NCBI GenBank assembly: GCA_030374765.1
Contig: JARGXX010000079.1
Coordinates: forward strand, 1,116,001-1,180,000
Origin: Agarophyton chilense
Taxonomy: Eukaryota; Rhodophyta; Florideophyceae; Gracilariales; Gracilariaceae
Reading direction: 5' to 3'
DNA length: 64,000 bases
Shown: piece by piece, positions 18,652 to 58,354 of the stretch
How the letters are laid out: every line of letters begins with the position of its first letter
How positions within the stretch are numbered: position 1 is the stretch's first letter
The notes under the pieces: model-generated
The model's database searches: none
Seen by the model: the letters and a program-made list of their open reading frames with translations, nothing else
Told to the model about the DNA's origin: nothing
Translations under genes and position numbers: made by a program

Positions 18652-19520
18652 TGAAGATTCTACCCAGGACTCGGAGATTTCGCTCGCTTGAGGACTATCT
18701 TGGTCTATGACAAGCTATAACGCTATTGCGTGCCGACGGCCGGTTAGGACCGGAGGTGCACACTGGTGGAACACGTGGACTGCACGGATGCCGACGCTCG
18801 AGTGCGAGGCGTGCCACACGTGGCCCGGATTCTACCTAATGGTTAGTATAATTTAGTATTTTTTAGTATTTATTTAGCTACGCTATCGCTATTTAGTGTC
18901 TATTTTTCGGGCGCGCGCCCACTGTCGGGGGCCGTGCGCCACACTACTTAGGAGGTTGAGCACTGTTCCCCAGTAAACACCCTCTTGGGAGATCCCAAAC
19001 GAGGGAGTCCTGGCTCTGAACTTTTCGCCTTCGGCGTGTCTTCACCGCATACTGCGTGAGCGCCCGTTGCACGTTAGTTCATCCACCCCTCTGTCGACCA
19101 GAGTGCTACCAACAGCGTGGGTTCATATTTAATCGCCGACAATTGTCGTAGTCTCGCCCCTGTATAGGGTTTCGCCCCCGTTTTCCTCTTGTTCTCCTTT
19201 TTGGCTCTCGTGAGTGGCCGCCTCACTCACCTCGCTCGTCCACCTCATACGAGTGTTTCCTCGCTCCTTTTCCGACAATCGCTGTTGTACCGCTCCGCCT
19301 AGGATTGGTCACACCCCGGACTGTGCCGTGCTCACCTAAACACTCTAGGTATATCCCGCCGGATTGGCCTCGGTCTTACACCCGACTTCGTCGTGCCTTT
19401 CCAGAGTGGCTATGTTTCTGTGCTCTGCTGGGACGCGTCTCCTCCGCCTGAGGCGTGTCTCTCAAGAGAAGAAGATCCCGAACATCTTCGTGGTGTCTCC
19501 GCTCCAAGAGTTGTCCTACA
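18652..19520 (+). repeat. 5' LTR of element B
   Basis: Matches 47560-48447 from about 18664 onward; its extreme 5' end is altered. It carries CACGTG at 18772-18777 and 18817-18822, CTACTTAGG near 18944, and ends TCCTACA like the element A LTR. The sequence after it, AACTGGTCTTCC, is the primer-binding-like site. Confidence 0.88.
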
Positions 19521-24136: not shown

Positions 24137-24159
24137 CGTCTGTGTTCTCGGAATGCTAG
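24137..24159 (+). repeat. Left terminal inverted repeat of element D
   Basis: Pairs with 42820-42842 over 23 bases with one mismatch at position 5. It starts CGTC and ends GCTAG. The adjacent AG (24135-24136) is the probable target duplication. Confidence 0.88.
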
Positions 24160-24232
24160 ATAAGTGTGCTAGATAGCTAGTTTTGTAAATAAAAAGCCAA
24201 AAAATCTAAGAATTTTGCAGATTGCGCTAGTT
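24155..24232 (+). repeat. Left subterminal GCTAG/GCTAGTT repeats of element D
   Basis: GCTAG occurs at 24155, 24168, 24176 (as GCTAGTTTT) and 24226 (as GCTAGTT). The right end has GCTAGTTTT at 42646 and 42689 and the inverted form AACTAGC at 42710 and 42818. Clustered short subterminal repeats that bind an element-encoded protein are typical of EnSpm/CACTA elements. Confidence 0.6.
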
Positions 24233-24389
24233 CGGCACCTGAAAAAAAATTTTTGGAAATAAGAACTCCATGCATCTTAGTGTTTTGACCACTTAATGCA
24301 GTTTCATCTGCATTTGCAGTTTACTGGTCACTTTTGACCGCTCTAGGTGGAGATCCATACCAAGGCAGTCGTCAGTACCTTCTACCTCC

Positions 24390-24821
24390 TTACTGGCCCT
24401 TTTGCTTACTAGGCTCCAGCGTTCCACCGGGAGGGTATTTGAGGTTGAAGAAGTCCACCACCGCATTCTCAACCTCGTCCACCTCCCCACTGCTCAAGTT
24501 CCTCACACCCGGCTGCCCCACCACACACACATTCCCACCCTTCTTCTCTACATCCTTACCAACCCTCCTCTTCTTCAGCCGACTCTCTCCAACTCCTCCT
24601 CCTTTCCATTCCTCTCTCCCCTTCTTCATCCCAGCCGGCTCCCCGCGTCTCCCTGGTGTCACCGGCGACCCTTTCGCTCTCCCCTTCTCCTCTCCCACCT
24701 CCTTCAACACCTTCCGCGCACCCCAAATCTCCCCCACCCCTTCCATGTGCACTTCCAACACCTTCACACGCCTCTTCAGTTCCTCATTCGCCCTCCACAG
24801 CTTCCCCATCTCAAGCTCCAT
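24390..24821 (-). CDS. Small basic coiled-coil protein in element D
   Basis: A 143-residue frame from the ATG at 24821. The first 35 residues form a heptad-like helix (MELEMGKLWRANEELKRR, then VKVLEVHMEGV). They are followed by a Gly/Lys/Arg-rich segment with a nuclear-localisation-like RLKKRR, and an acidic C-terminal stretch (SSGEVDEVENAVVDFFN). A second minus-strand frame (24811-25071) may be the original N-terminus, joined by a frame change. No family recognised. A small DNA-binding or regulatory partner of the transposase is one possibility, but nothing in the sequence proves it. Confidence 0.45.
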   Translation of the reverse strand: MELEMGKLWRANEELKRRVKVLEVHMEGVGEIWGARKVLKEVGEEKGRAKGSPVTPGRRGEPAGMKKGREEWKGGGVGESRLKKRRVGKDVEKKGGNVCVVGQPGVRNLSSGEVDEVENAVVDFFNLKYPPGGTLEPSKQKGQ

Positions 24822-24829
24822 GGGGATCC

Positions 24830-25431
24830 GCTCGACATCGCCAACGCCCGCGAAAGCTATCGACAAGAGCCACCGCAAGCGCAAGCGCACTCACCTTAGT
24901 GCGGCCAGTAGTACCCGCAGCCTCCCACACAGCACCCCCCCTCGAAAATCCTCTCGCCCACATCCGGCCTTTTGTCTCCTTTTTTGACCCGCTTTTCGCG
25001 CGCGCTCGCCCAATTTCAGTACCCTCGTACACTCCTGCATCTACGCTCCGGATGCCCTTCACCCCACTCATTGCTCACTCACACACTCCCATCCATATTC
25101 CTACACTTTCTATCATGTTCAGCGCTCCCTCACTACTCCCAATTTCATAGCCTTCTCATTTATAATAAATCACACTCATTCGTAACACAAACCGCCGATT
25201 ACTCATAAGCCCTCTTTCCCGTTATGACTTCCATAACAACACACACTCCTACACTTTTAACACAATAAACACCATTCAATATCATAAATCTAACCTCCTT
25301 CCCAGAAATCCCTAACACCCATTCCTCCACAACCATACTACTTCTCTATTTAATCACATCTCCACACTCGCCACCCCCACCACTTCTTCAATTCCAAGCA
25401 CACCGCACTCCAAACACCTTTCGCAATCAAC
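24830..25431. other. Intergenic stretch between the divergent coiled-coil and KPR-like genes
   Basis: Pyrimidine-rich sequence, with short polyproline/serine-rich shadow frames on the plus strand. From about 25150 it is AT-rich and leads up to the ATG at 25432. Probably the divergent promoter; no specific site recognised. Confidence 0.4.
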
Positions 25432-26256
25432 ATGACCGACTCTCTCACTGCCATCCCTTGCACCTCCGACCCAGCCGTTATTGTCGGCAGAGGCCGAATC
25501 GGCACTTTGCTTCGCAACAACGGCACCCCACAAGATGCTTTTCTCCCAACTCAAGAATTCATCTCCGCGCAATACATCCCCGACGGCCCCATTTTCTTCT
25601 GCGGCAGCAATCATTCACTCGAAGACGTCATTCAATTCTGCCCTTGCTCCCGCAGAGAGGATCTGGTCTTCCTTCAGAACGGAAACATTCTCCCACTTCT
25701 TTCAACCTATGGGCTCCAAAACTGCACCAAAGCCGTTCTCTTCCTCGCCGTCCCCTCCCTTAACGCACCCCCCGAGGACGGTGTCACCCTCCTCAGTCCC
25801 CATGGTCTCACAACTGCCACCGGCAAATGGGCTCCCGTACTCGCCAATCGCCTCAGTACCGCAGGCCTCACTTGTCATGTCGTCGACCAGCCCTCCTTCT
25901 CTAAAGCTTACTACGAAAAACTCGTATGGATATCAGCTTTTAATCTCGTCGGCTCCTCTTATGGCTTTATCACAATGCACGAAGTTACAGTACAACACCG
26001 CACAGTCGTTTCAACCATAATGAAAGAGCTCCTCGCCACCGTCACATCCGAAACAGGAATCGCCTACAATACAACAGAAACACTCCAAAAACTTCTGGCC
26101 CACGAAAAAACACTTACACAGTTCCCCACCTCGTTCTCAGACTTTGAGTTCCGTAACGTCTACTTCTACAACGTTGCTACCGCCCAAAAATCCATTGGAA
26201 ACCGTGACCCCGCCCCTTTCCATACGAACTTCTTGAACGTCCTCCTCAATGGGTAG
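25432..26256 (+). CDS. Ketopantoate reductase-like (ApbA/PanE family) protein, element D cargo
   Basis: An intact 274-residue frame. The start has a Rossmann-type dinucleotide motif (VIVGRGRIGTLL, residues about 16-27), followed by a hydrophobic strand before a central loop (KAVLFLAVPSLNAPP, about 100-114) and VTLLSPHGLTT, where the family has its GG/NG loop. The C-terminal helical half has KLVWISAFNLVGSSYG (about 163-178), which matches the family block that ends the inter-domain helix (K..W NaaFN). 2-dehydropantoate 2-reductases use NADPH to reduce ketopantoate in the pantothenate pathway; other members reduce other 2-oxo acids, so the substrate is uncertain. The length is slightly below the usual 290-310 residues. 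It is the only long cargo gene of element D without an obvious break. Confidence 0.65.
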   Translation: MTDSLTAIPCTSDPAVIVGRGRIGTLLRNNGTPQDAFLPTQEFISAQYIPDGPIFFCGSNHSLEDVIQFCPCSRREDLVFLQNGNILPLLSTYGLQNCTKAVLFLAVPSLNAPPEDGVTLLSPHGLTTATGKWAPVLANRLSTAGLTCHVVDQPSFSKAYYEKLVWISAFNLVGSSYGFITMHEVTVQHRTVVSTIMKELLATVTSETGIAYNTTETLQKLLAHEKTLTQFPTSFSDFEFRNVYFYNVATAQKSIGNRDPAPFHTNFLNVLLNG

Positions 26257-26671
26257 TACTTCATTCATATACCCCTTCCAATAAAAACAAGTCCTCCTTT
26301 CTAAAGCATATGTCCATCTCCTTCGCTGCCTCGATAAAGACTGCTATCCGCACGACACCACGTCAGAATATATGAAACGATATTAAGAATTGCTTCGTAC
26401 ATCACAAATCATCACTACAACCACTCTTCATAAATCTTCCAACTTTGCAACTAAGTCTGTACCCAATAACCGCTCCTACAGCCTATCAAAGGTTTTCATT
26501 CATAACAATTATTCATACTCCGCAACAGAGATACGGCAACAACCTAACAACTACTTTGATCACTATATATATATATCCACCGATGACCACCCTACTTCAT
26601 TGCGCTCAACATACTGTATCCAGTCCCTCACAAATACCTTTCTACACAACACTCTCCTCTCCTTCTCAAGC
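26257..26671. other. Intergenic stretch in element D
   Basis: AT-rich, with a short TATA run near 26565-26575 (ATATATATATATC) about 100 bases before the next ATG. No gene. Confidence 0.4.
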
Positions 26672-27857
26672 ATGCAGCGCTACGAAACACGTCTTTCCCT
26701 ACCCCCTGGTTCTTCTGTCCAATGCTCAGCAGCTGTGGATATTCTTCAACAACGAACGGTTATCACCATCGACGAAGTCCTTCAAATCAAACTTCCAACC
26801 ACCCCGAATGTGGTCGAAGTCAGAGGGTTCCAGAATCATATCACCAACGAGCTCATGGACGAGATTCGTGACATTTGTACGACCACCAGGAGGCTCCCCA
26901 CTCGCAACTCCCTACAGCAGCAAGATACTCCGAAACAACTGTTCAAAGAGCGGTATCATATCGTTACTTATGTGCAGCGTACAAGGAAGACTAGCAAACC
27001 GGAACGCCTTTACTAAGATGTTCAGTTAGCAAACACTCTTCACATCGACCTTAACGTTCACAATCACACTAACTACACTCTTCGGAGTTATAGACCCAGC
27101 TCTGCAATATACGCTTCCATTCAGATTCAACTCTCTCCTTCGGTTCATTCTCATAACGCTATTGAGGTGTTCTGTCCAAAGCCTGCTACACATTCTCATA
27201 ATCGAAGGAGGCGTACAATGTATAAACGCGTTATATGGGTCTCAACAAACTACGCCGTTCAATCCAAACCAGCGATATACCTGGAAGAAACGAGCCTTTC
27301 TAGAATTCGGGGCTCTACTCCTTACTCTACTCATCCCCCTCAATGCCATACTTTTCCTCGTTCACCGCTTCATTCCAGTCAGCGGTACCCTTTCATCAGA
27401 CGTGAAGACAAATTGTATCGCCTTCTCCACAAAAGGGGCCGCAGTTGGCGCTTTGGCATATCTTCTCCAGCTTGTTTCTATATCCTTCTTTCCAGAGTCC
27501 TATCTTAACACAAAGTTCACAATGACCCCGGAACCACGGAGAACCTCCTTTATGAACCTCGTGCTTGGCGCCCTCTCCCACTCTTTTCAACAGGCTTTAT
27601 TCGTATCCAGTCCGGATGTAACCTTCCGACTACTCGGTATGAGGCTGTCGGCATGCACTTTCGCTGCACTCTCTTCAACCGCCTTCTCCACCTCTCGCAT
27701 TGAGAGACCTGGTGTTCCTATACTGCTTGGTAACACAGTGGATGTCGTAATCTTGATATCTTCGACAGTTGTCATTCACTATGAGAAAGTGAAAGCAAGT
27801 GCTGCTCTCACGCGTTTCAATCCTGTTTTTCAGGAGTTTCTACTGAAAGACGACTGA
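26672..27857 (+). pseudogene. Multi-pass membrane protein of unknown function, broken (element D cargo)
   Basis: The first 114 codons (26672-27016) encode a soluble segment (MQRYETRLSLPPGSS...). The plus-1 frame then continues from about 26970 to 27857, interrupted by a TAG at 27027-27029. This second part has hydrophobic segments typical of membrane helices: LLRFILITLLR / LLHILII (about 27140-27210), ALLLTLLIPLNAILFLVHRF (about 27312-27371), AAVGALAYLLQLVSISFF (about 27440-27495) and TVDVVILISSTVVIHY (about 27736-27783). The two frames look like one gene with one frame change and one stop. No family recognised. Confidence 0.45.
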
Positions 27858-27938
27858 TCACTATTACAAGAAAAGGGGACTACTCCACATATTACCTCAA
27901 ATTGTACTCTTTATTGTTCAATAGGTAACAGATAATAT

Positions 27939-30900
27939 CTAGTCGTCGTCGTCATCCATTATCATACCGCCGTCTTCATAGTCTCCATCTGTGTTAGCCG
28001 AGTTGAGACCCATCCCAGGTTCATCATCCTCTTCTTCATACTCCTCTTCCCCACTTTCAACAACTTCCATTTTATAATCTTCATCCAACTCCTCATCCTC
28101 ATCTACCTGGACGTCTTCATCTTCACCCTTGTTGGAATCATCCTCTTCGAACTTAGGCCGAAATGCTGGTTGCCTATGCACTGCGTCCGGTAGCTTGTAC
28201 CCATCCGGTACCAAGTACATGTGATACCTCATGCAAACTTCCTTAACCAATGCATCCTCGTATCCAGCTCCAGCATGAAACACATCTCCTCTTCCAATAA
28301 AAATGGAGTACGGCGGAATCCTGAACTTCCTCACTACCATCGTCCGAGACAGCCGCTTCAAGCTCCTGTCGTCGGGCACGTACATGTTATGTGACCTCTC
28401 ACAAACCCAAAGCATAAACGAACTCGCTCCCGACGCCATCATGAAGAACCCTGGAACCTCTCCGACGTTCTTCTCGGCATCGGTCAGTCGTCGAAAGTCC
28501 GTATGTAACACCTGCCTTGGACAGCCCTCCGCCGTACACAGCACTCGCCTCCCTGTTTCAGGGGCATACATCTTCTTCTTCCCCGACCGGTTGTTGCACA
28601 ACCGAAGAGCGGCCGCAATCTGCCCAAACCTCGCATCCAACAATGCCCTTTTCCTCACCATTAAAACGTTGTTCTCGTCCCCCTCCACAGAATCCACAAT
28701 CCCCACCTTCGTCGTAATGTACCGCCCAACTCCCTTCATTCTATCTCCAGCGTCTCTCTCCTCACCAGCGTTGATAATAGGGTCCCATTTCTTTCTATTC
28801 CCTTCAATCGTCAAGTCCGGCTGGTTCAAGAAATCCTTCTGGAAGAACTCTAGCAAAGTCCCAGTCACATCCCCATCGAAGTATACCCCCCTCTTCTTAG
28901 CCTCATCCGCCATCCCCTCGTCCGTGGCAAACTCTTCCAGCACACAAAATCCTTTCTCCATCAGCTCACTTCTCTTGGTCGCGAAGTACTCGCGGGCCAA
29001 GTCATCCCTCTCCATTGCTGCCATCCATATCGCCTGCTCTTCATTCACAGGGTGATCCTTCGTCGGTAGAATCACCCCAAGAACCGGTTCTTTCGTGGAA
29101 CCCAGTTCCTTGTGGCTGTTATGAACAGCACGCCAATAAACCGCATGGTGCACACTTTTTAAGTCTTCTACCCTCAAGCACTCCGCCCTGTGCTTGTTCC
29201 GTAGGTAAATCATCTGCATCCAGAGGTGCTGATGCTTCACTCCATTTTCACCCGCCGGCCACTCGCTCGGAAGTGCATTCACCAAGTACACCCACGACAT
29301 ACCCGACCCCCCCGCATACGGTCCCGCCCTCTTCAGCCCCTTCGGAACACTCTCCGGATTATTGTCTTCGAAGCCACGCATTTGCACACCTTCCTCCTCT
29401 TCGTCCCCTACAAATGCACCCTGCCCCCCGTCATCATCCAGTTCATCCTCACTCGATGAGAAAACATTGAGTAAATGTTCCTTCAAGAAGCGCTTCAGCT
29501 CTTTCCTGCTCATCTTCTTGAACACATCCACCACGTCAGCCGGTATTTGAGCCGCAGATGTGCCCACCGTCTTTCTCCTCTTCCTCTTCCGCTTTAAAGG
29601 CTGTTCATACTCGCGTTCATCATCACTAATGACCACAGCCTTTCTCTTCCCCTTTCTCTGTCTAGGTTCCATCACCCTCTCACCCGCAGCATCCAGCCCG
29701 CGCTCAGTACCTTTTCTAGTTCGTGTGATGCGTCTGGGAACCACGGTTTCCTGGTGGGGTACAGACTCCCCAGCACTAGACGAAGGAACATTCACAGAAG
29801 GTGGCACCTCCACCACATCCTTCTCCGCACTTGGGGACGCCAGACTCACTTTCAGACCGCCTTCAATCCGCCTTTGTGCGATTTTCATCCTCTTCGACAC
29901 CAACCCCGGCCACAACCGCTTCGGACCACTGAGCTCCATCTTCGCCGTTTGCATGCAAAGGTACTCCCTTAAAGACACCTCGTTCTTCCCCATCACAATT
30001 GTGCTGTCTAGAACCTTCCCCGCCGTCAGACCCTTCTCCTTTCCCGCCCTTTCGCATAGTTGGAACACTCCTGTGGCGCATTGGAAGAACTGCTTTCGCG
30101 TCTCCTGGAAACGTCCCATATTCCCCGTAGAACCCATCCTCACCCTCACATGTAGCTGCAAACAACGGATTTCGAAACGGAATATTTCGTCTTCGAGTCC
30201 TAACAACAAGTCACTCGACACATGCGCAAGCGTTAGCACTGGACCCTCCTTGCATAAGTTCTCAAAGAACTCCAGGAGACCTTCGCTCCTGACGAATTTC
30301 AACCCAAGAGTCGCATAGCGATTCAAGTGGCGCAAGCTGTAGATTCCTATAGCTTCGCTCGTCTTCAGCGCCCCAGCTATCCGTGTCGGAGTAAGGTCAG
30401 CCAACTTGGTTCTCTTATCGTCAATCAAGTTGCAAATGAAGGACACTGTCGAATGAACCTTGTCGGCGAAACTCATCTTCAACACATTTGAACTCATTTC
30501 ATTGAGTACATTACCAAGACCGAGCACTTCGTTCAGCGATAAAGGCTTCCAGTCCTTGCGTCTCCAAAGAACGACATCAAGAGACCGCACAATTTCCAAC
30601 CACTTTCTCCCTTCAGAGGGATCATTCTTCAGATCTCGCAGAACCAAGACGCGGTGATGACCGTCAATGAGTATGACAGGCACCACTACCCTCCCATTGT
30701 GAACAATTTCACTGAAATCTGATTCCATTCCCCCGACGATGGCAACAGCAATCGACCCTGCCGACACAAGCCAGCCAAACGTTTTGCACTTTGCCATCGT
30801 CGCCGCCTTGTGTTCCGCCTTCACATACTTCTGACAGTCTTCTCGGGGATTTGTATGTCATCTATGTCCACAATCAAGCGGCACTGGTCATAGTCTGAAG

Positions 30901-31228
30901 CAGAGAACTTCTTTTCCACGAGAGTCCTATCCACTTCCTGCGAAGGAACGGCATCGCCGTCATCGAACAACCCCAACTCGGGACCGGTGTGCGAATCCCC
31001 GCGTACATTCACCGCTGACCCCACCTCCACAACATCTTCATCAGAATCATCCACTATCGTCACCCTCTTTTTCGGCTTGACAGGTTACTTTATGGCCGGC
31101 GGCACTGTTGTTGGCTGTGCCCTCTTCCCCCTCAAAGGCGTAGCAGACTCCTTCGAGGGGGTCGCGCTTTTGGGAGTCTCCGGCCGAGGAGGCCCTGGAG
31201 TCAGCACAGAGGAGACGCGTGTCATCAT
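27939..31228 (-). pseudogene. ParB-like domain fused to 2OG-Fe(II) oxygenase-like domain (element D cargo)
   Basis: The main frame (27939-30824) encodes about 961 residues. The N-terminus has a ParB/Srx-like block: IDDIQIP in the upstream frame, then VVPVILIDGHHRVLVL, followed by a helical region. The middle is a charged, nuclear-type linker (RQRKGKRKAVVISDDE, KRKRKRRK). The C-terminal part fits a 2-oxoglutarate/Fe(II) oxygenase: HTD at residues 774-776, distal His850 in GDVFHAGAGY and Arg866 in CMRYHMYL, giving the HxD...H...R set. The very C-terminus is acidic. The start is unclear: the frame changes by -1 near 30830-30850, and a TAA lies near 31074 before the likely ATG at 31228. The oxygenase target could be a nucleic-acid base or a protein; the sequence does not decide. 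Confidence 0.65.
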
Positions 31229-31237
31229 CGAGGTATC

Positions 31238-31627
31238 TCATGCGTATATACCTTCCGACAACATATTCTTCAGCAACTCCGGCGGCTCCTCTGCTCCCTT
31301 GAAGGAGTACGGATACTTGGGGTTGATCCCTTCCTTAATTTCAGTCCTCCAGATGGCCACCAAGTCCTCTCCCGGCTTCGCAGACTCTCGCAACGAATGG
31401 CCATGCATCGCTCTGCAAAGCGCCTTCCCGGCCGCTCCACTGCCCCCAACACCTCTCAACTCCGCAGTGCCAACCATAGTACCCTTCTTCTTCCCTGTCC
31501 CATCCGCCAGGAACAACACCACCCTATCCCCACCAGCCAGATTGTTTCCCGATGTAGCTTTTCGCGGAGTGGCGCGTGCAGTACCCCGCGGAGTACCCCT
31601 CGCTTTCGCTTTGCCTCGAGTCATCAT
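31238..31627 (-). CDS. Small basic protein upstream of the ParB/2OG gene
   Basis: A 129-residue frame from ATG 31627. It begins with a Thr/Arg/Pro/Gly-rich AT-hook-like run (RGTPRGTARATPRKA), and the rest is a compact segment (DRVVLFLADGTGKKKG, IWRTEIKEGINPKYPYSF). It ends with TGA only three codons before the ATG of the next gene and in the same frame, and both start MMTR. It is therefore either a separate small gene or the original N-terminus of the ParB/2OG protein cut off by a stop. Confidence 0.45.
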   Translation of the reverse strand: MMTRGKAKARGTPRGTARATPRKATSGNNLAGGDRVVLFLADGTGKKKGTMVGTAELRGVGGSGAAGKALCRAMHGHSLRESAKPGEDLVAIWRTEIKEGINPKYPYSFKGAEEPPELLKNMLSEGIYA

Positions 31628-31773
31628 TTGAATCGGATCGTAGTCAGTCGAGGTTGCAAATGGTCGCAGAGCGCTTTGAGCCTTTTATGGTATACAGACT
31701 AAGACGTATTAGATCGAGCTCCTTTGGTGGCGACTATCCGGAACACTCCCGAGAGCAGTTCGTTGTAATCAGC

Positions 31774-31851
31774 CTGAACTACGTCCGCTTAGTTTCAAGC
31801 TGAGCTACGTCCGCTTAGTTTCAACCTGAGCTACGTCCTCTTAGTTTCAAA
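31774..31851 (+). repeat. Three tandem 26-bp repeats
   Basis: The unit CTGAGCTACGTCCGCTTAG (plus TTTCAAG) starts at 31774, 31800 and 31826 with one or two differences per copy. It lies about 150 bases upstream of the small basic protein, in the divergent promoter region. Confidence 0.85.
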
Positions 31852-31939
31852 CTCAAGAAACTCCTTGTCTCTTTCCATCACAAACACGCCTATTGGCTTG
31901 GTAGGTGATACAAGAATATAAAATTAAAAAATTAAAAAT

Positions 31940-32698
31940 ATCCTGACGGCCGACAGAGGTGCGCTCCGACTTCATCGGGGGTCCCGATGAAGTCCCCGCG
32001 CACCTCTGTCGGCCGACAGAATACATATAATTTTGTAATTTTTAGAATGCTCAGGTGTACACGGTGCACTCTGTCGGCCGACAGTCGACCAACATCTCAG
32101 AAACGCATCATGCGTGATGTTATGGCGTATTTGTCGGCCGACAGGGGTGCCCTGCGACTTCATCGGTCCACCGATGAAGTCGCAGCACACCCCTAGCGGC
32201 CCACAAATGGCCCTAATGGTGTCCGTACAACATGTTGGTGAATTGTCGGCCGGGGACTTCATCAGGACCCCCGATGAAGTCGGAGCGCACCTCTGTCGGC
32301 CGACAGAGTGCACCGTGTTCACCTGGGCGTTCCAAAAATTACAAAATTATATGTATTATGTCGGCCGACAGAGGTGCGCGGGGACTTCATCGGGACCCCC
32401 GATGAAGTCGGAGCGCACCTCTGTCGGCCGACAGAGTGCACCGTGTACACCTGAGCATTCCAAAAATTACAAAATTATATGTATTATGTCGGCCGACAGA
32501 GGTGCGCGGGGACTTCATCGGGACCCCCGATGAAGTTGGAGCGCACCTCTGTCGGCCGACAGAATGCACCGTGTACACCTGGGCGTTCTTAAAATTACAA
32601 AATTATATGTATTATGTCGGCCGACAGAGGTGCGTGGGGACTTCATCGGGACCCCCGATGAAGTCGGAGCGCATCTCTGACGGCCGGCAGAATGCAAC
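31940..32698. repeat. Array of large palindromic units between the divergent cargo genes
   Basis: Units of about 128-130 bp. Each contains a long hairpin with arms GTCGGCCGACAGAGGTGCGC and nested arms GACTTCATCGG / CCGATGAAGTC, separated by an AT-rich spacer with AAATTACAAAATTATATG. The perfect 14-base palindrome CTGTCGGCCGACAG occurs five times, and its core TGTCGGCCGACAG about nine times; a few more copies are degenerate. The three units in 32340-32690 are direct repeats; the first unit (31940-32085) is in the opposite orientation, and a diverged hairpin lies at 32130-32200. The array sits midway between leftward (31627) and rightward (32863) genes. Operator, origin-like, centromere-like or insulating roles are all possible. 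Confidence 0.9.
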
Positions 32699-32862
32699 CA
32701 GGATAGCTGCGAAGTCGTTCCGCAACAACCGTTCTTCCGTGCGCGCTCCTCAACCGTACTCACAATCTTTCCGTACCCACCTGCACCCACCCGCACCCGC
32801 TGCTCTCTTTCACTCAGGCTCTCGTGACGACCGCCCGTGAGGTTTTTTGAACATGTACATAA

Positions 32863-33894
32863 ATGGCTCCAGAACCCACGAGAACTTCTTCATCGCCTGC
32901 GGCAGACACCTTCGAAATGGGTAAACTGTTTGGTACGGGGGATGAAGTTATCAGGGCGTGTCTGGATTTGTGTGATCGTTACGCATTAACGAGGCGGGAG
33001 GAAGAAGAGCCGCGAAATGTGGGGCACACTGCATTCATCGATTTCGCAATTGCCAATCGCCACATCCTACCGGAGACCGCGAAGTTTTTTTATACTCTCC
33101 TAGGTCCCGACCACACCAATTACACAGAAGATGAGCTCCGAGTTGTAGGAATGAGGGGCTCGAACTGTCAGAATTATTTCTCGGCGAGGTTGCTGGATAT
33201 AAGGGATGGGGACCCAGATAGGCGCGTGAGGGACTTTTGGAACGCGTACGAGGCGGTGGAGTTCAAGGGCATCCCGAAGAATGTCACTTTGACAGAGTTC
33301 TTCAAAGGTCTGGATACAACCCGAAAGAAGGCGAGCAAAAGCCGGGCTCCATTCGCGACCGACTTCCCGACAATGTTCCAGAGGTTGCTGTTCCTCATTT
33401 GTATTCAGTCGGTCTCTATGGAGAAGAGAAGAGTCTCCCGTAAGCGAAGAAAGCGGGACAGAACCTACGATACGCCATTTTCGAAGGTGGCGATTTATGA
33501 CAAACCAGTAGCTCAGCGTGTGGGCTTTGGTGTGCAGCTCGTCAATAACGCGTGGGACAGCTTCGCCCAGTATTTGGGATTCCCTGGCGTGGAATTCATG
33601 GTTTTGCCCTTTATCCATCTACGATATTCTGATATGCAGTTCCAGGCAATCGGAAACAGAAGGGATGGGTTCTCTCACAAGGACATGGCCCAACGACTCC
33701 TTCCTGGTAGAAACCGTACTTTATTGGAGGAGGATGTCGTCCCATGGGCGTGGAACCTGCCGGAGTACGTTGACACTCCACTTCGTATGTTGGCCAAAGA
33801 GTTTCTCGCTGACCTGCACAAAGTGGTGGTGAATGAGCAGCTTTACTCTACATCAGCTCCGGAAAGATGGGACGTTCTAAAACCGTTTACATAA
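32863..33894 (+). CDS. Unknown 343-aa protein or N-terminal part of the methyltransferase-SET protein
   Basis: An intact frame from ATG 32863, mostly folded-looking, with a basic patch (KRRVSRKRRKRDR, about residues 187-200) and aromatic-rich blocks (NNAWDSFAQYLGFPGVEF, VVPWAWNLPEYV). No family recognised. After its TAA the same frame stays open to 34257 as an acidic linker (EEDEIEIVPPEKDSE), which in the -1 frame leads straight into the methyltransferase frame at 34155. I infer that the two were one protein of about 1,040 residues, now broken by one stop and two frame changes. Confidence 0.5.
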   Translation: MAPEPTRTSSSPAADTFEMGKLFGTGDEVIRACLDLCDRYALTRREEEEPRNVGHTAFIDFAIANRHILPETAKFFYTLLGPDHTNYTEDELRVVGMRGSNCQNYFSARLLDIRDGDPDRRVRDFWNAYEAVEFKGIPKNVTLTEFFKGLDTTRKKASKSRAPFATDFPTMFQRLLFLICIQSVSMEKRRVSRKRRKRDRTYDTPFSKVAIYDKPVAQRVGFGVQLVNNAWDSFAQYLGFPGVEFMVLPFIHLRYSDMQFQAIGNRRDGFSHKDMAQRLLPGRNRTLLEEDVVPWAWNLPEYVDTPLRMLAKEFLADLHKVVVNEQLYSTSAPERWDVLKPFT

Positions 33895-34154
33895 ACTTTG
33901 CCTAGAGTGTTTGCGGAGAGATTCGACTGCTTCTCGAACTCTCTTATCTCTACCATCTCGGAATACATATCGCCACTAAAGCTGCGAGGGAGTGTGGAGG
34001 TGGAAGTGGTGGCTGCGACAAAGGCGGAACCTACTATGGTTATGGAAGAAGACGAGATAGAAATTGTACCCCCTGAGAAAGATTCGGAGGCTCCAGCGGT
34101 GGAGGGTGGAGAGGGAGTGGAGGGTGGGACCGGACCGGGAATGAGGAAGAGAAC

Positions 34155-35995
34155 ATGGGTGTTGGTCAGCATTCTTCCACAGCTGGACCAAGGTCGGTCG
34201 AATCTGAGTCGGTGGATATTCTGCCGCCTCACGACCTTACCTCTCTGGATGATATAATGTCTCTCCAAAAGTGCGAGTCGGAGATGGATAAGCACTGTCG
34301 AATGTACAATTGTACTTTCGAGAACCTGGTGGAGATTGACGAGACATTGCGCAGCAATGGGGTCTCTCCGATAGGGAAAGTGCAGTTGGTTCTCACGGAC
34401 CCGCCGTATAACGTGCGAAGAAGAACAGGAAAAACAGCTGGTACGACGTTCTTAACCGGCAAGACATGGTGAAGACGGCGAAGCTCATCTCTAAACTTCT
34501 GCGTCCGGGAGGGCATTTCGTTATATTCTGCGCGATTGAGCAGGTGAACGAATGGAAAGAAGTGTTGGGTCGAATTGGTGCAAAGGATGAGAATGGACAG
34601 AAGAGCAGGTCGTTTGTCGTGGACAAGGTCCAGCTGCACTTCATTCGCTCTCAAGGCAATCCGATGCGTAATCCCGGACGTAGTTCGTGCTCCCTGTTTC
34701 CCGGAACAGAGTACGCCATTCATGGAGTTCGCAGCGGGTTGTCCTACGCCGAACAACATGGCATGGTGAACTATGAGAACTTCAGCTATGTACCATCGCG
34801 ATATCCGGGTTACCATAGCGTGATTGACCAAGTGCCTCCCATGTCGAATGGTGAAACACTTCTATGGAGAAGGAAGAATGCCAAAGGAGCAGTTACGTAT
34901 CAGAAAGTGCGGGCGGAACAGAAGTCACGCGCTTTGCTGAAGGAGCTCATCAGCAGGTTTTCTCAGCCGGGAGACATAGTGGTGGACCTCTTCGCCGGAA
35001 CATTTTCAACGGCCATGGCATGCATGGAACTGGAAAAGCACCGTCAGTTTCTAGGGTGTGAGCCAGATCCGCAGTGCTTTGCTCATGCGAAGCACGCCGC
35101 TACAGTGAAATTTGCGTCATGCATGCGGAACAACGAGACGGACATTCATATAACGCAAGATGTTCGGAACGCTGTGACTCGAGTGACATGCTTGTTTCCG
35201 GACGTCGTCATAAAGCGTTCGAAGTCCTGGAAAACACCTACCGGATTTCCCGAGCATCAGATGTTTCCACCCCATATCGTGGATTTTCTCTCCTCCATGT
35301 GGCAGGATAAGAATATACCGGAGATTGGGCGACGGCAGGCGCTGTATGAGTGGCCAAAAAGTTTTCAGGGAAAGATGTCACTGTTGGATTGGAATGCTAT
35401 TCTGGCAGTGGAGGCGACAGTATGTGGTTGTCGGATTGCAAAGTCGACGATAAGGCACCCGAATGCTGGAGTTGGTGTGTACACAACACGCCGGGTGATA
35501 CAAGGTGAGACTGTTTGTTACTTTTACGGGACTTTGGTGTACCATAATCTTTCAAAGCGGAAGGAAGTTCATAAGGCATACGGAGGGGGGCTATTGAAAG
35601 CGACTGCTGATCGTTTTCGGCAGTACGCGATGGAGATAAGCGTCCGAGGGGAAGTGTTTCACAAGCTACCAGGAAGAATTAGTGGGGTGTCTCTTATTCC
35701 GGTGTGGATTGTCCCTGCTCCATTTTGCTTGGGGGGAACAATTAACGACCCCAAGTATGTGGAAGGGGATAGGGACAGGGATGCGGTTGAAGACGGGTTA
35801 ATGAGACGCCGAACTGCAAATGTTCGGGTCATCAGAACTCCGGGGACGGGGCGGACCCCATTTCAGTTGAGAGACTATAGATTGCTTTCTGTGCAAGCAA
35901 TTCGAGATATAGAAATAGGAGAGGAGCTGTTCGCGGATTATGGGACAGAGTATATCTGGAGTATGAATAACACGCCAGTCATAGTAATCAATTAG
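34155..35995 (+). pseudogene. Beta-class DNA methyltransferase fused to a SET domain (element D cargo)
   Basis: The first frame (34155-34472) ends with methyltransferase motif IV, VLTDPPYNV (34392-34418). The -1 frame then continues (34466-35995, open from 34412) with SWYDVLNRQDM, LLRPGGHFVIFCA, the target-recognition stretch, and SAM-binding motif I as GDIVVDLFAGTFSTAMACME (about 34972-35031) followed by LGCEPD. The order IV before I is the beta class, whose members methylate adenine N6 or cytosine N4. From about 35410 a SET domain follows: GVGVYTTRRVIQGETVCYFYG, then FCLGGTINDP in place of the usual NHSC-type block, and RDIEIGEELFADYGTEY near the end. The frame change lies in an A run near 34430. 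It would act in the nucleus on DNA and possibly histones. Confidence 0.72.
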
Positions 35996-36319
35996 AAGTG
36001 CATCGCTTTTATTACTTTACTTCATTGTAGTGTACCAGATATTGTGGGCTTTTACTATGTTTGTCGCTACATATAACGTCAAAGCGTGACGTAGTACATA
36101 TGCTAAAGGAAAGTCATGTACACCGAAGGAGAATACCTTCCCAATATCTGGTGCGTTCGAGCGCATATTTAAAATATCTGAAACGTTTGGGGGTTTTCTG
36201 AGAACACGAAAAGGGTGGAGGTATATTTTTGGAAGCAGAATGTTTCGAAGCTTCTCTCCCATCCATCGCATTGCAACGCGTGGAAGACCATACCACGATC
36301 GCTCTCTCTCTCTTCAACC

Positions 36320-38977
36320 ATGGCTCCGAAGCGCAAATCGAAAAGCGAGAACACTAGAGGGCGCGGTACAAAATCACGGCGGCATGGAGGGGATGCGGAG
36401 GGCGGAAGGGACAAGGGGCGTAGGCTCCAGGGCCCGAGTGGAGAGAAGGGAGGCGTGCGCCTGAGAGGCAGATCAAGGCAAGATGGTGGGGAAGGAGACG
36501 CGAGTGGGGGAAAAGGAAAGGCTGTTCGCGCAAAGGAGACGGTGACGGAGGAGAGTGCGGAGCAAATCACGTCGCGTACGGAGCAAATCACGTCGCCTAC
36601 GGGAGAGATGGTGCGGATCGGCGATGGAAAACGGGATGGCGTGCGAAGCAACTGCACGCGTGTACCTAGAAGTGGATTGCGGGGGAGGGCGAGCAGAGCT
36701 CCAGGGAGGACAAGGAGAGGGGATGCATCCGAGCGGACTCTAAGTGCTGTACTCACGTCTTCAGCTGATGTGGAGCCGGTAAATCCATGCTCTGCACCTG
36801 AAGGAGGTGAAGAGATTCCGAATGAGAGGACGAAGGGGCGTAAGGAGGGAGAGAGAATGATCGGAGAACGTGGATCTCGCCTCAGAGGCGTTGAAGAAGC
36901 AAGGGCATCGTTTACGGGTATGAGGGAAGAGGACGGTGATGATGAGATACAGAAAGGGAGAATAGAGAGTAGCCGTGGTGGGGAGGGTAAAATAGGTGGA
37001 CCCAGTAGTGGTCTAATCGCGGGCGCAAGAGTCGTTTGAGAGAGAACAGAAGGAGAGAGTGTTGGAGTTTCCGCGGGGGAACAGGCGGAAAGAGGGGAGG
37101 GGGCGAACTTGGATTACGTAGAAGAAAGGAGAGAGCGTGCAAGGGAAAGAATGGGGAGTGTTCGAGTTACAGGAAGAAGAGCGATAGACGAAAGGGAAAG
37201 CAGAGAAGTGCATGTGAGTGAGGGGGGGAGAAGGGGGTTTGCTGGAGGGAGAACACGTGGTTCAGGGGAGGAAGGCGATGGAAGAGCAGCAGTTCTTTCC
37301 CATCAGGGAGAAGATGTCGAGCGTTTGCCACCGAGGAGAGGGGTGGGTTTAGGAGTTGAAGGGTTTGAGGTGAACGCAAGGCGAAGGACGCCGGAAGGTA
37401 TGCGAGTAAGGAGAAACATTGTATTCACGAGGAATAATGATAACGGGGAGAATGCGAATTTAAATGTCGTGGAGAACGCCGTCCGTATAGTGGAAGATGA
37501 AGCAAATGATGATGACATAGGTTTGTTGCCGCGGTCGATGCTAATTGAGAAGATGAATGTGTTGAAGGGACAAATGGGACGTATGAAGGAAGACAGCTAC
37601 AGTGTGATGGTGAGTTTGAAAATGACCCAAACGGAGCTGGATCGGGCGAGGGAGGAAATGAAGCAGCAGAATGTGCTGATTGAGAGTTTGAGGGAGGTGT
37701 TGAAAAGTAGAATCGCTGGGGAAGGGAGGGGGGAGGGAGGCGTGACACGGCGACGAAAGTATGACATTGGAGTGCAAAAATGCTTTTATGGATTTGCACG
37801 TCGTGTGTATTATAGGATTCTTCATTGTGCAAAACTGGAGGCATCGGAACTTTTCTTCGACACCGAGAATGTGGGTCAAAGCTGGAAGAATAGAAGTGAG
37901 GCGGTTGGGGAGAGTAGGGAGGAAAGTATGTTTGTGGTGGGAGAGAAGGAAATGGTTCCGAGATGTCCAATTGAGGTTGCATATGAGATGAGACCGTATA
38001 CGCCGTCGACAGAAGGCGGGAGCCATTTGTTGTTGAAGCACGTGGTAGAGACTGAGTTAATAGGAGAGAAATGGGAATCGATAAGGGAAGCGGGGAGGAG
38101 AGAGAAGTTCGTGGAAAATGTAAGTGCGGATCGGTGCTTGAGACAGAGGATGAAGCAAGCATTGAGCGATGTGGTTGGGGTGCGGAAGCGAGCAGCGCGT
38201 GATAAGCTGTTTTCCATGCTTGGATATGATTTGATCGCGAAACGAGCTAAGGTGACTGAAGGGACGGAGCTTTGGGCGGAGTTGAAGAAGCAGATTGAGG
38301 AGGCGCAGGAAAAGTTGATGGGGTCGGGGGAGGATGGGAGAGGTAAGCTGTGTGCGTGGAGAACGAGTGCGATTGAAGATATTACTTATTCTGGATCGAA
38401 GGTGTCTGAGAACTTGGAGGACTTTGGTGAGGCAGATATGTATTTTCGAAATCAGGTGTCGTTGAAAGTGTTGGAGGAGTTTATGGGCTACGCGGTAGAG
38501 AGTCACAGAAATGGAGAAAGGCAGTATGTGGATGGGACGGTGATTCATCTTGTGCGACTTGATACATGGATTGGATGTGTGGTGACCGGATGGATAGAGA
38601 CGTTGGGCGGGGAGGCCAAAGGCAACTTTTGTTCTCGACGCTGTTTGGGAGGTTTCTGCCACTGGCTGTTGAGGACATATTGAGGGTTGCCTGGAACTTG
38701 GTGAAGGATGAGTATGCTGAGGAGTTTGAGAATGATGGATTCTGTGGAGGGAATCGTAGAGATGTGAGTGGGAATAAGGAGAGAATCGCGACGGTTGGGC
38801 TATGGATACCGTCGAGAGAGAGAGAAAATCTATCTGGCGATAAGGGAGGAGTTTTTCATGGAGAATCTCACGAGAAGACTTGGAGCGGTGTTAGATTGCT
38901 ATATAGCGTCATGTGGACCAGAAGAACCACGGTTCAAGCGCTTAGCGTTGGGGAGTAGGCAAGGAGTGGGAGAGTGA
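36320..38977 (+). pseudogene. Basic coiled-coil protein of unknown function, broken (element D cargo)
   Basis: Starts at ATG 36320 (MAPKRKSKSENTRGRG). The first 240 residues are Arg/Gly/Glu-rich and disordered-looking, with a TGA at 37037. The same frame then continues to 38683. It has a coiled-coil segment (about 37540-37720, MTQTELDRAREEMKQQNV) and a folded C-terminal region (YDIGVQKCFYGFARRVYY, AIEDITYSGSKVSENLEDF). Near 38610 it changes to the -1 frame (LFGRFLPLAVEDILRVAWNL), and near 38825, at a GA run, again (REEFFMENLTRRLGAVLDCY). No family recognised. Confidence 0.5.
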
Positions 38978-39064
38978 TAAGGTACGGGGGGATAAGGGGG
39001 TAAGGAGGTGGAGCAAAATGGGGGTCGGCTATGGAAGAAAAGCAGCGGTGACTATTTTATTGGA

Positions 39065-41943
39065 TCATGTGCCTTCGGAGGTATTATTATGGGTGCCACC
39101 CAGTGGTGGTGTTGTGCCACCAGTGGTGGTGTTGGAGAAGTAGGGCTTGGCAGTTGGGTCTCGGTAGAATCTGTTGAGGTATAATAGATGGAAGCGCCAG
39201 TGCAATCGAGGGGTGAAAGGGGGTGCGGGGTAGTTTTGGCGAAGTACATGAACGGGGCCGAGAATGGAAGAGGATGGTACGAGGCCGAACCAGGGGGAGA
39301 CGTTGTCGGAGTTGGAAGTGTTTGAGATAGGAAGGGGGTGGGCGGTGTGGTTTTGTTCGTCGTCTGTTGCCCATCGGAGGCAGATGCAATTGAGAGAGAC
39401 ATCGACTTGATCCTGGGGTGGAACGAGTTCGAGGAACTGAACGAAGGCGAACTCGTTATGAGTGGAAGGGGAAGAAGGGGCGGTGAAGCGAAGAAGAGAG
39501 TTGAGCTTGCAGACCCAGGCGGTGGGAGTAAGGTTGGAGAACCTGGAACCGGCAACGAGGATGTGGGAGAACTTTGGGGTTTTAGAGGGACCGAAGGAGG
39601 GAGCAGCGAAGATACGTTGAATGAGTGGGAGAGGGGGATCTTTGACGGCGAGCTCGTTTCGATCGGCGATGTAGTCGTCTAGGGTTGGGGTGAAGCCGCC
39701 GACGACGTATGCGGAATTGACGAATGTGAGACGGGTTTGGCGGAGAGTGGGGGAGTCCTGGTTGAGAGCTAGTGTTTCGAGTGTGAGTGTGACGAAGGAG
39801 GGGAGTGCGAGGGTTCCAATCTGTGAGATGATGGCGATAGTGTCTGGGGAGAAGAGGTCCTGAAGGGAAGAGATTGTTGAGTGGGGGTTTGCGCGAAGGA
39901 ATTTGTGAGCGGTGATGAGATCGGAAAAGGAGGTTTGCTTGCCATCACGGACGAAACTTGGTTTGCGGGCTTGGAAGGGAGGAGGAGGGGCATGGGAGGA
40001 TGAGGTGACGGAAGGATCAGCGGAGAGAGAAATCCAATTGTTGACGGCATCGGAGCGTTCGATGGCACGGATGGTTTCGTTGTGCGCGGTGGGTCTGCGC
40101 TTGGAGGTTCGGGAGTAATGTGCTTTGAAGAGGGTATGGGCTTGTTCGAAGATGCCTGCATCGTTGAAGTGGAGACCCCCAAAGCGTCTAATGTCGTGTA
40201 AGATGTGATCGAGGAGGTGGAATTCGAGGGTGCCAAGGTTGGAGGTATGGTATGGACCGAGAACATCGACAGCTCTGTGCTTGAAGGAATGGATTTGGGA
40301 GGCGAGTTTGGCAAGGTGAGAAGTGGTCCATTCGGGGACGGAGTTGTAGCACATGGAGGTGAGGAGGAGGTCTGTGTACTTGGAGAAGACAGTTGTGATG
40401 GGAGCGGAATTGGCTTCGTCACAGCAGCGGTCAAAGAAGGCGCCGATGAAGGGGAAGACCATGTCGAGGGCGCGGTAGTATTTTGCTTCGAGCATGCCGC
40501 GGACGCCGTCAGTTGTGAAGAAGCCGTTGAGGGACTGCCGCTTTCGGAAGTAGAGAAGTCGATGTGGAGGCCGGTAGCTGGGGAATGATTTTCGATGGCG
40601 GTGAGGATGAAGTTGGAGTGCTTGAAGATGGAGGTGCGGACGGAGTGGAAGGAACGGCGGGAGTTTGTGGAGCTGATGGTGGTGAAGAGGTGTTCTGATC
40701 TGAGACGTTCGATGGCGGTGAGCTTGATGAGTTTGGAAACGCCGAGGTGGAAGTTGTGGAGGGGTTTGAAGGGGAAGATGTTGTATGGGGTGAGGAGGGG
40801 GGTGATGTTGAAAAGGGGGTAAGACTCGAAGAAGGAGGGGTATTTTGCGAGGGAGTGGGAGTGAAGTGCTTGGAGAGCTTGTTCTTTGAAGTTGCGCGAG
40901 ACTCTTGGCTTGCGGGCGAGGAGAGCTGCTTCGGAGTCCTTGAGGAGGGAGAAGTGTTTGTTGCGGGCTGCAAGGGTGAGGGGAAGAGATCGAGGGGGAT
41001 GGACGTGAGAGTGTTGGTGGAGTTGTGAGCGAGGAACAGAGCATCTGTGGCAGGGGTGCTGGGGGCGGGTGCCGTGGGAGATGGCGAGAATATCCTTTGC
41101 CTCGGGAATATCTGCGCAGTAGCTGGCGATGATGGGGTGGCATTGAAGAAGAACGCCGTCTGCGTCGCGGAAGGGGAAACCGGGGAGGGCGGAAGAGAAG
41201 AGAGGTTGAAGGAGGGAGGAGATGGTCTGCTGTATGAGTTCCATTTTTGTTTGGCGGGGGATGGAGGACGAATGAGCGATGATATCTGCATATGGAGAAG
41301 GAGTGATTGGGGTGAAGGAGGTGGGAAGATAGACGAGGAGTGTGAGATTGTCGGAGATGCATTTGCGGCGAAAGGAGTCGGAGAAGTTGAGAAGGGTGAT
41401 GTGGAGTGGGTAGGAGGTGATGGAAGAAGATTTGAGAGAGGTAGAGGACTTGTCGGAGTAGATTTGGACGAGGCCGATGAAAAAGTCGATACCGGTGGAG
41501 TGAGGGAGATGCAAGACGATGTTATCTTTTGTGGACTGCATGATGGCGTTCTTGAGTGCGGGGACGACTTTTGAGCCGAGGGTGGCTGCCATGGGGTGTG
41601 CGAAGGCGGGGGAGCCGGAGGCGGATGTTTGGGAGATGGGGTGGAAAAAGGTGTTCTTGAAGTGTGCGAGGGCAAGCTGTTGTTTGAGGACATGGATTGC
41701 GTCTTTCTGGAAGTGGGTTGCGGAGAAGCGTTTGTGGGGATCGCAGATGGTGGAGGGGGCGAAACCAATGGACCTGATTATCTGGTGGAAGAGGTCTGCC
41801 TGGAGCTCGAGGCATTGCTTTGCGGAGGAGACTGAGTTCCGGGATGTTGATTCGGAGAAGTGGGGATCATTAAGAAGAGTGATGAGTTCGTCAGCCTTTC
41901 GTTGTCCAAGCTTGGAGGCGATGGAGGAGATGTAGAGGACCAT
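39065..41943 (-). pseudogene. CACTA/Plavaka-like transposase of element D, one frame change
   Basis: The N-terminal two thirds lie in the frame starting at 41943, the C-terminal third in the -1 frame that ends at 39065; the switch is near 40540. Blocks that fit CACTA/Plavaka transposases are: YPLHITLLNFSDSFRRK followed by a LVYLPTSF strand; GVLLQCHPIIASYCADIPEA followed by a zinc-type HPCHRCSVPRSQL; PFKPLHNFHLGVSKLIKL; and, after the switch, LEFHLLDHILHDIRRFGG with FEQAHTLFKAHY. Family proteins use these for the catalytic core and the TE/H-rich tail. The start is uncertain because the same frame is open upstream to about 42200 without a clear ATG. The ends of element D match the superfamily. 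Confidence 0.68.
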
Positions 41944-42645
41944 TTTCTCTAGGTGGGAGTTGTCGAGGGGGGGAGTGGAAGGAGGGAGGGGGGAGAGAGC
42001 GAGAGAGGAGGGGGAACCGAGAGGGGCAGTGGCGACGTGGATGGCGTCCTGGGTGTGGAGGGAGAGAGAGAGCTGGTCTTGGAGATAGGAGTCATGGTGT
42101 GCGAGAGGGAGGTTGTCGGAAGGGCGAGGTGAGGGAGGAGGATGAGGGGGGAGTTGTGAGGTGGACTTGTGGCGTTTTATGCGGGGGGGGAAGTTGGGTT
42201 CATTTCCGCCAGGGGAGAGGAAGCGCTTGTTGGCGGAGAGGCGATGAGAGCACCTTCTCTGGTGCCGCTGGAGGGCGGGGATTTCTCGGGCGAAGAAGGA
42301 TCAACCGTTGAAGCAGCAGGAAGGCATGGTGGGTGGAGGAGAGGTGGTGGGAAAGAAGTTGGTAGGGGGCGTAGACCGAGAGAGAGTATGGCGCACACAG
42401 GGCACGTGACAGGGGAGGGCGGTGGAGAATAATGTAGAATGCAAGGCACGTGAGGTCTGCCAGGTCGGGCTGCGATTCTATTGCGATTGATATGGATGGT
42501 ACTAAATGTTCAATTTCTATTTTGAGGTCCATTTTGGGACCGTTTGTTTGTACTAATCTGTCAATCTAGAGCGCACAAAGATTGAATCTGCTCCTGCACC
42601 ACTTCTCTACTTTTACCTTTAAACTGCGGCGACAGAAAGATTCAC
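41944..42645. other. Upstream region of the transposase gene in element D
   Basis: Left half (to about 42440) is purine-rich on the plus strand and could encode a Pro/Ser-rich N-terminal extension of the transposase on the minus strand. A C run near 42180 separates the frames. No independent gene is convincing. Confidence 0.35.
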
Positions 42646-42824
42646 GCTAGTTTTACCTCCATCAAAACTGGAAAAACTGCAGATATGTGCTAGTTTTCCT
42701 TCCCATACAAACTAGCACTAATGAACGAATGAAAATATTTTCGGAAATTAACACCTCCAAATTTGGATAAATTCACGGGTTTTTCGGTCATTTCAATTCG
42801 TCCTTTTTTGACCACTGAACTAGC
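42646..42824 (+). repeat. Right subterminal GCTAGTT repeats of element D
   Basis: GCTAGTTTT at 42646 and 42689, inverted AACTAGC at 42710 and 42818. They mirror the left-end cluster. Confidence 0.6.
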
Positions 42825-42842
42825 ATTCCGAGAACACTGACG
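42820..42842 (-). repeat. Right terminal inverted repeat of element D
   Basis: Reverse complement of 24137-24159 with one mismatch. Followed by AG, the probable 2-bp target duplication, and then by resumed element B RNase H sequence. Confidence 0.88.
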
Positions 42843-42844
42843 AG

Positions 42845-47521: not shown

Positions 47522-47559
47522 CATGTCGATGGCGTGTTCGTCACCTAAGGAGGGGGATA

Positions 47560-58308: not shown

Positions 58309-58354
<46 letters not shown>

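Follow-up and report, generated by a model that had tools for sequence, protein, structure and literature searches.

Why would a transposon carry proteins that look like DNA- and chromatin-modifying enzymes? The question is raised by a 64,000-nucleotide stretch of the red alga Agarophyton chilense (GenBank assembly GCA_030374765.1, contig JARGXX010000079.1, positions 1,116,001 to 1,180,000 of the forward strand), referred to here as the window, in which a transposon unit of 18,706 bp occupies positions 24137-42842. A reading of this DNA from its letters alone (the sequence-only reading) had described a giant CACTA-like element carrying a DNA methyltransferase-SET fusion, a fusion of ParB with a 2-oxoglutarate (2OG) oxygenase, a palindromic array and further cargo. 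Our follow-up analysis points to a Plavaka-type transposon whose methyltransferase-SET and ParB-oxygenase proteins may together form a self-marking unit that controls the silencing of the element's own chromatin, a tentative interpretation for which we judge the case to fall a little short of evenly balanced.

The transposon and its transposase

The terminal inverted repeats of the unit, CGTCTGTGTTCTCGGAATGCTAG on the left (24137-24159, + strand) and CGTCAGTGTTCTCGGAATGCTAG on the right (42820-42842, - strand), match at 22 of 23 positions and are bordered by an AG target duplication, at 24135-24136 before the left end and at 42843-42844 after the right end. The left flank (23837-24136, + strand) is Ty3/gypsy RNase H coding sequence that is interrupted by the insertion and resumes at 42845. 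When the unit was removed together with one AG copy, a 118-codon open frame spanning the junction was restored, which along its full length is 75% matched by a different gypsy element, at 10215-10571 of the window; with both AG copies kept, the longest frame across the junction was only 77 codons. An empty site was also found for a sister copy on contig C10, which has a TA duplication and whose flanks match an uninterrupted, unrelated repeat in the window (left-side matches 18834-19025 and 47761-47952). The two window copies of that repeat span 18658-19025 and 47463-47952, and a third copy holds the C10 transposon. RNase H and integrase domains mark Ty3/gypsy elements in the window at 9687-13088 and at 22453-24136 with continuation from 42845 onward, the latter being the one interrupted by the transposon.

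A search of the host genome with the end core GTGTTCTCGGAATGCTAG, allowing up to 2 mismatches, returned 474 matches (245 + 229) compared with 1 for the reversed control; here and below, genome-wide match counts are lower bounds, and a few genes are split over two rows. Thirty end loci were fetched and 22 of them pair into 11 further candidate elements, 8 of which have identical 2-bp duplications, a result with a chance probability of about 3e-8. The three candidates without an identical duplication measure 13.1, 15.3 and 14.0 kb. These results bear out the single 18.7-kb unit with 23-bp inverted ends of the sequence-only reading, which had suggested looking for other copies and empty sites; both were found.

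The transposase gene (39068-42477, - strand) lies in two frames in the window copy and, on C10, in an open frame of 1137 codons. Both copies match the Plavaka profile PF18759, with E-values of 2.1e-20 for the window copy and 1.4e-22 for the open C10 copy (80.8 bits, cut-off 26.3). Alignment of 21 relatives shows no variation at D342, D456, C476, H754 or H758 and conservation of at least 90% at C479 and E778. These residues fit the pattern D, D, C(2)C, H(3)H, E given for the Plavaka (CMCT) clade (Kojima, 2025; PMC12730594), the catalytic assignment being drawn from motif spacing. The 2-bp target duplication also fits Plavaka, for which duplications of 2 or 2-3 bp are reported (PMC12730594). The fungal PlavakaA and PlavakaB lineages have the termini TGT..ACA or CATCA..TGATG (PMC12730594) and are ruled out by the CGTC..GACG termini of the element. 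CACTA/EnSpm proper, with CAC termini and a 3-bp duplication, is ruled out by the CGTC termini and the 2-bp duplication, and a search for a CACTA-like end pattern gave 0 matches. The transposase had been called CACTA/Plavaka-like, and it can be seen that the Plavaka half of this label stands, far over the cut-off, while the CACTA half does not.

A divergent gene pair in two settings

Two large genes diverge from a palindrome array at 31920-32696, which contains 10 copies of TGTCGGCCGACA, nine exact and one near, compared with 0.23 expected, and has arms of up to 145 nt; the large palindromic array noted from the letters is confirmed by these counts. The same core was found 487 times genome-wide, compared with 5 for its reversed control, and the 50 sites listed on C1-C3 fall into 10 clusters, none of them more than 13 kb away from an end match.

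To the right of the array is the methyltransferase-SET gene (32863-35992, + strand), which is in three frames in the window copy and has 1043 open codons in the C10 copy. The order of its motifs (DPPY..FAGT, with DPPY ahead of FxGT), the N6_N4_Mtase profile (E 3.4e-18 for the C10 copy) and the fold all agree with a beta-class amino-methyltransferase, which is predicted to act on N6-adenine (N6A) or N4-cytosine (N4C). At its C-terminus the C10 copy scores 23.4 bits with the SET profile against a cut-off of 22.4, and 19 of 23 relatives match at E ≤0.01. Because the list of structure matches for the model was filled by the methyltransferase domain, the predicted SET lysine methyltransferase rests on profile and motifs.

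The gene to the left (27942-31684, - strand), in two frames in the window copy and with 1247 open codons on C10, encodes a ParB-like domain with DGHHR and a C-terminal domain predicted to be an Fe(II)/2OG oxygenase of the PhyH type. The predicted structure of a relative gave matches to PhyH-type 2OG oxygenases, including the HxD...H fold of that group, and in addition a weak match to ParB; with Foldseek, the match to M. xanthus ParB had an E-value of 8.4e-4 but a root-mean-square deviation (rmsd) of 15.8. The DGxHR motif is present in 12 of 12 relatives, and a ParB-like DNA-binding clamp is predicted from motif and model. Profile searches that included the 12 relatives gave no Pfam family match for the ParB-oxygenase, and a PDB profile search with its alignment gave nothing convincing. 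A structure search for methyltransferase and 2OG folds had been set beforehand as a test of the two fusions, and both folds came back. The fusions are upheld by motif, profile or predicted fold, with a weak match for ParB.

The sequence-only reading had named fungal KDZ transposons with TET/JBP oxygenases as a precedent and had considered that the oxygenase might act on bases. The Tet_JBP profile found no match in P0002 or P0003 (E up to 5) or in the 12 relatives (E up to 1), and the best folds are PhyH-type, so a TET/JBP oxygenase is not supported. TET/JBP structures are absent among the fold matches listed, which excludes nothing on its own, and a genome search with PF12851 was silent, as were its control searches, so that its silence carries no weight.

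The methyltransferase-SET query had 83 genome matches, 65 in its own family (93-100% identity, fragments included) and 18 in a second family at 45-46%. The second family led to the first 20 kb of contig C95 (C95:1-20000; L064, L065), which begins with about 2.1 kb of (AAACCCCT)n, a telomere-like array. This is followed in order by a ParB-oxygenase gene (- strand, 1335 codons), palindromes, a methyltransferase-SET gene (+ strand, 1141 codons) and a helicase gene with OrsD and RecQ-like helicase domains, which is cut by the end of the stretch read. The palindromes between the gene pair are five 16-bp copies of ATTGCCTGCAGGCAAT at a spacing of about 773 bp, and this palindrome was found 177 times genome-wide compared with 0 for its reversed control. 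In both element classes the two genes thus diverge from a region of repeated palindromes. Full-length alignments of the transposon and telomere-type proteins show 36% (481/1319) and 35% (371/1064) identity, and no transposon-type ends were found within the 20 kb read on C95.

Twenty-nine N6_N4_Mtase rows in the genome are telomere-type (ORF, or open reading frame, length of 1130 or 1141, plus nine assigned by place). Of the 20 that lie on contigs of known extent, two of these contigs being shorter than 60 kb, 19 are no more than 25 kb from a contig end and the remaining one is at 58 kb. Among 13 contig ends inspected, the telomere-like repeat is present at 2 (C95 and C76), at three others (C121, C32 and C16) the 773-bp repeat was judged by eye to be terminal, and 8 have neither repeat. 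More methyltransferase rows (ORFs 1220 and 755) were seen at C21:609984-670000, near a run of the telomere-type palindrome with a period of about 5.5 kb; lying inside a long contig, this region is perhaps a third arrangement. Telomere-linked RecQ helicase repeats occur in fungi, and the C95 unit is like them in placing a RecQ-like helicase near chromosome ends. We know of no such fungal repeat that carries a methyltransferase-SET and ParB-oxygenase pair.

The named nearest relatives of the cargo proteins are from Chondrus crispus (P0013) and Gracilaria domingensis (P0040). In the methyltransferase-SET tree, ((P0001,P0007),(P0004,P0006)), ultrafast bootstrap support is 100 at each fork, and the forks of the ParB-oxygenase tree, (P0002,(P0003,P0031)), are likewise at 100. 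P0006 and P0031 are probably neighbours, since their contig figures agree (4 contigs, the longest of 20,528), and so probably are P0025 and P0036, for each of which there is a single contig of equal length (17,066). The forks and the probable neighbours together indicate that two versions of the pair split before their carrier species did, and that the partners moved together. Residues 1-160 of the methyltransferase protein P0026 contain a weak ParB-like start, with DGAHR followed by an SFAD-like motif (hhalign probability 4.8%, E 0.0083), which gives a hint that parts have been exchanged between proteins.

Copies, derivatives and neighbouring features

The C10 sister copy (L061+L062) is colinear with the window copy end to end and 98.4-98.6% identical to it, the palindrome array excepted. 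Since the frames are in pieces in the window copy while the C10 copy keeps all three large genes open, the former is a recently broken copy. Eleven of the 65 own-family methyltransferase-SET matches sit in the 1043-codon open frame with no stop within the match, and the ParB-oxygenase query returned 48 genome matches at 88-100%. Profile searches gave 116 N6_N4_Mtase and 123 Plavaka matches. Apart from the 29 telomere-type rows, there are 87 methyltransferase rows. On the opposite strand, a Plavaka match lies 2-9 kb downstream of 58 of them and a ParB-oxygenase match 3-9 kb upstream of 40; both partners accompany 37. Looked at from the transposase, 55 of the 123 Plavaka matches are paired with a methyltransferase row at the expected place.

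The other 68 of 123 are what would be expected if the two genes were passengers, a modification pair derived from host, virus or bacterium that was picked up by chance and has no role for the element, and the methyltransferase domain does resemble bacterial and phage enzymes. This explanation has to contend with the recurrence of the pair in two unrelated element classes, its order and orientation unchanged, with at least two lineages of the pair that are each found in a second organism, and with the conservation of the catalytic motifs; we regard it as very unlikely. A viral origin of the pair was rejected, because at least 79 viral loci match the methyltransferase-SET protein, among the matches listed in the methyltransferase domain only, and the search of viral sequences with the ParB-oxygenase found no match. 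We consider it likely that unrelated selfish DNAs share one toolkit that controls their own silencing, and the palindrome of each element may provide a private binding address for its own ParB.

The 11 end pairs include five short copies, 3.7-5.9 kb in length. All five were read, and each has both ends, part of the palindrome array (0, 4, 9, 3 and 5 exact cores) and a cut-down transposase, with no match to the cargo genes. Because the breakpoints 17639/18484 are common to all, the five count as one lineage. They are deletion derivatives of this element rather than a cargo-free ancestor. Copies sharing only the ends and the transposase had been named beforehand as evidence against the proposed element, and such evidence was found in part: cargo-free copies do exist, but as derivatives with a cut-down transposase.

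That ends and array were kept and cargo lost in all five could mean that ParB and the array serve in transposition or maintenance, forming a nucleoprotein complex that aids excision, replication timing or end pairing, with the marks serving just to protect or license. The 487 array cores and the clustering of the listed sites near end matches would suit this explanation. Its support from the derivatives is reduced by their common breakpoints and by another derivative of 8.1 kb (L025) that is without the array, and the presence of the pair in the telomere-type repeat, where the 20 kb read contains no transposon-type ends, argues further against it. We think it quite unlikely.

The transposon holds further ORFs, two of which had been labelled metabolic and membrane cargo. 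One (25354-26253, + strand) has a dinucleotide-binding-like start (GRGRIG) and weakly matches 2-dehydropantoate 2-reductase; the other (27030-27854, + strand) is hydrophobic, possibly a membrane protein, and weakly matches an MFS transporter model. Both matches are to NCBIfam and far below cut-off, so neither label was confirmed. Overlapping ORFs at 36182-38958 (+ strand), possibly coiled-coil, have no family match above cut-off.

Elsewhere in the window are a copia-type gag and integrase-related ORF (3-2216, - strand) and a DDE_3 endonuclease ORF that is likely part of a mariner-like transposon (51419-52129, - strand). Two ordinary host genes lie beside the repeats, a chaperonin-10 gene with two Cpn10 stretches (53554-54294, + strand) and a tRNA-binding-domain ORF (54906-55760, + strand). 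The hexamer CTCGCT is repeated in tandem about 17 times at 58312-58411.

Precedents and proposed role

An exon-by-exon search for a C5-cytosine methyltransferase, which finds one in 10 of 14 control genomes, gave no match in the host genome, and for this reason 5-methylcytosine (5mC) is unlikely to be the target. Over 30 copies, transition rates at CG, CC, CT and CA were 0.0084, 0.0074, 0.0061 and 0.0048, and CpG has an observed/expected ratio of 0.86 within the element compared with 1.06-1.11 for the flanks; as a signature of 5mC deamination these copies show a weak tilt at most and nothing clear. A fungal host was rejected on the strength of the red-algal relatives named above and of phycobilisome linkers, for which the host genome gave 13 matches over cut-off: 7 are on C39, which is taken as plastid, and the remaining 6 are spread over six contigs.

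Parts of this picture are already known, namely giant red-algal EnSpm-group elements with accessory genes, which are cited in PMC12477816, and transposon proteins that combine ParB with an N4/N6-methyltransferase. A giant brown-algal Sola1 transposon encodes such a protein of 1104 aa, transposons of green and red algae are known to encode similar ones, and it has been suggested that these proteins attach to the very transposon that carries them and mark it (PMC12477816). The window element is like Sola1 in being a giant algal DNA transposon with ParB-like and amino-methyltransferase domains as accessories, and the weak ParB-like start of P0026 recalls the brown-algal fusion. It is unlike Sola1 in that the window and C95 have two proteins, one a fusion of the methyltransferase with SET and the other of ParB with a 2OG oxygenase, and in that the carriers are a Plavaka-type element and a telomere-type repeat; SET and oxygenase are unmentioned for Sola1 in the part of the source drawn on here (PMC12477816). 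With the giant EnSpm-group elements of Bostrychia moritziana, as cited there, it shares host group, giant size, superfamily and the presence of accessory genes, and their gene content may overlap with the present pair.

Fungal DNA transposons bearing TET/JBP genes, Plavaka among them, have been proposed to act in anti-silencing (Kojima, 2025; PMC12730594). They have in common with the present element a Plavaka-group transposase, 2-3 bp duplications and Fe/2OG oxygenase cargo, and they differ from it in that here the oxygenase is PhyH-type and has a methyltransferase-SET partner, the termini are others and the host has no C5 methyltransferase match. The HarbingerS and MuDR transposons of Phytophthora also carry a SET-domain methyltransferase, and a fused DNA methyltransferase is unmentioned for them in the portion of that source used here (PMC12730594). 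Bdelloid rotifers, which are without Dnmt1/Dnmt3-like enzymes, have captured a bacterial beta-class methyltransferase, N4CMT (PMC8885841), but that is a host gene with a chromodomain reader, unlike the mobile-element gene with a SET writer described here. Neither the methyltransferase-SET and ParB-oxygenase pair nor its divergent palindrome array nor its chromosome-end home was found in the literature searched, outside which lay Petroll et al. 2025 and most subscription papers. The former, on Bostrychia moritziana, reportedly names giant Plavaka elements in its abstract.

If the pair is a self-marking unit, the ParB domain would be seeded on the palindromes of the shared promoter and would then load onto the element DNA, where the methyltransferase-SET protein would mark DNA and histones. 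The oxygenase would remove or alter a mark or a chromatin protein, and the net outcome would be that the element can still be expressed (anti-silencing), with feedback acting on it. Self-directed silencing or anti-silencing had been suggested by the sequence-only reading and is a good candidate idea. Of the two, we favour anti-silencing: it would bring a selfish element the greatest benefit, and oxygenases and SET proteins carried by transposons have been discussed as acting in this way (PMC12730594). The main rival is autorepression, in which the ParB-guided methyltransferase-SET protein would place a silencing mark on element and shared promoter, the oxygenase would reset that mark, and copy number would be held down. 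Such a role would agree with the location of the array in the divergent promoter and with the bdelloid beta-class enzyme, which writes N4-methylcytosine that goes with transposon repression (PMC8885841). The C10, C105 and C117 copies, which are identical across 1,581 bp of the methyltransferase gene, point to recent amplification, and this counts against autorepression, which we consider somewhat unlikely.

Several observations weigh against the self-marking interpretation. Methyltransferase copies seem to drift neutrally after insertion and not to be kept for host benefit (over 30 copies, the nonsynonymous to synonymous ratio is 0.97 times the neutral value, and there are 11 stops compared with 18 expected), and most frames read in the window copy are broken. 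The Plavaka matches without a methyltransferase row indicate that the pair is dispensable for some Plavaka families. L025 has no array, and the array kept in the five short derivatives is one observation rather than five and suggestive only. In the telomere-type repeat the pair was read through both genes in one copy, that on C95, and the ParB assignment depends on the motif and on a low-confidence model (predicted local distance difference test score of 63, with the ParB match at rmsd 15.8).

The broader proposal would be that unrelated red-algal cut-and-paste transposons and telomere repeats have shared a movable self-marking module of two genes, a ParB-guided writer of DNA and histone marks and a chromatin oxygenase, which has a separate palindrome address in each element and amounts to N6A/N4C-based epigenetics in a lineage free of 5mC; this we regard as possible though doubtful. 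If it is true, a full set of tools for epigenetic control, independent of 5mC, is carried by selfish elements and passed between them, and these elements would provide a testable case of element-encoded N6A or N4C marking coupled to histone marking, in eukaryotes whose chromatin has been little studied. The many near-identical copies and deletion derivatives constitute a natural experiment for long-read modification calling, and the module would offer a possible reason for the multiplication of giant transposons and chromosome-end repeats in red algae.

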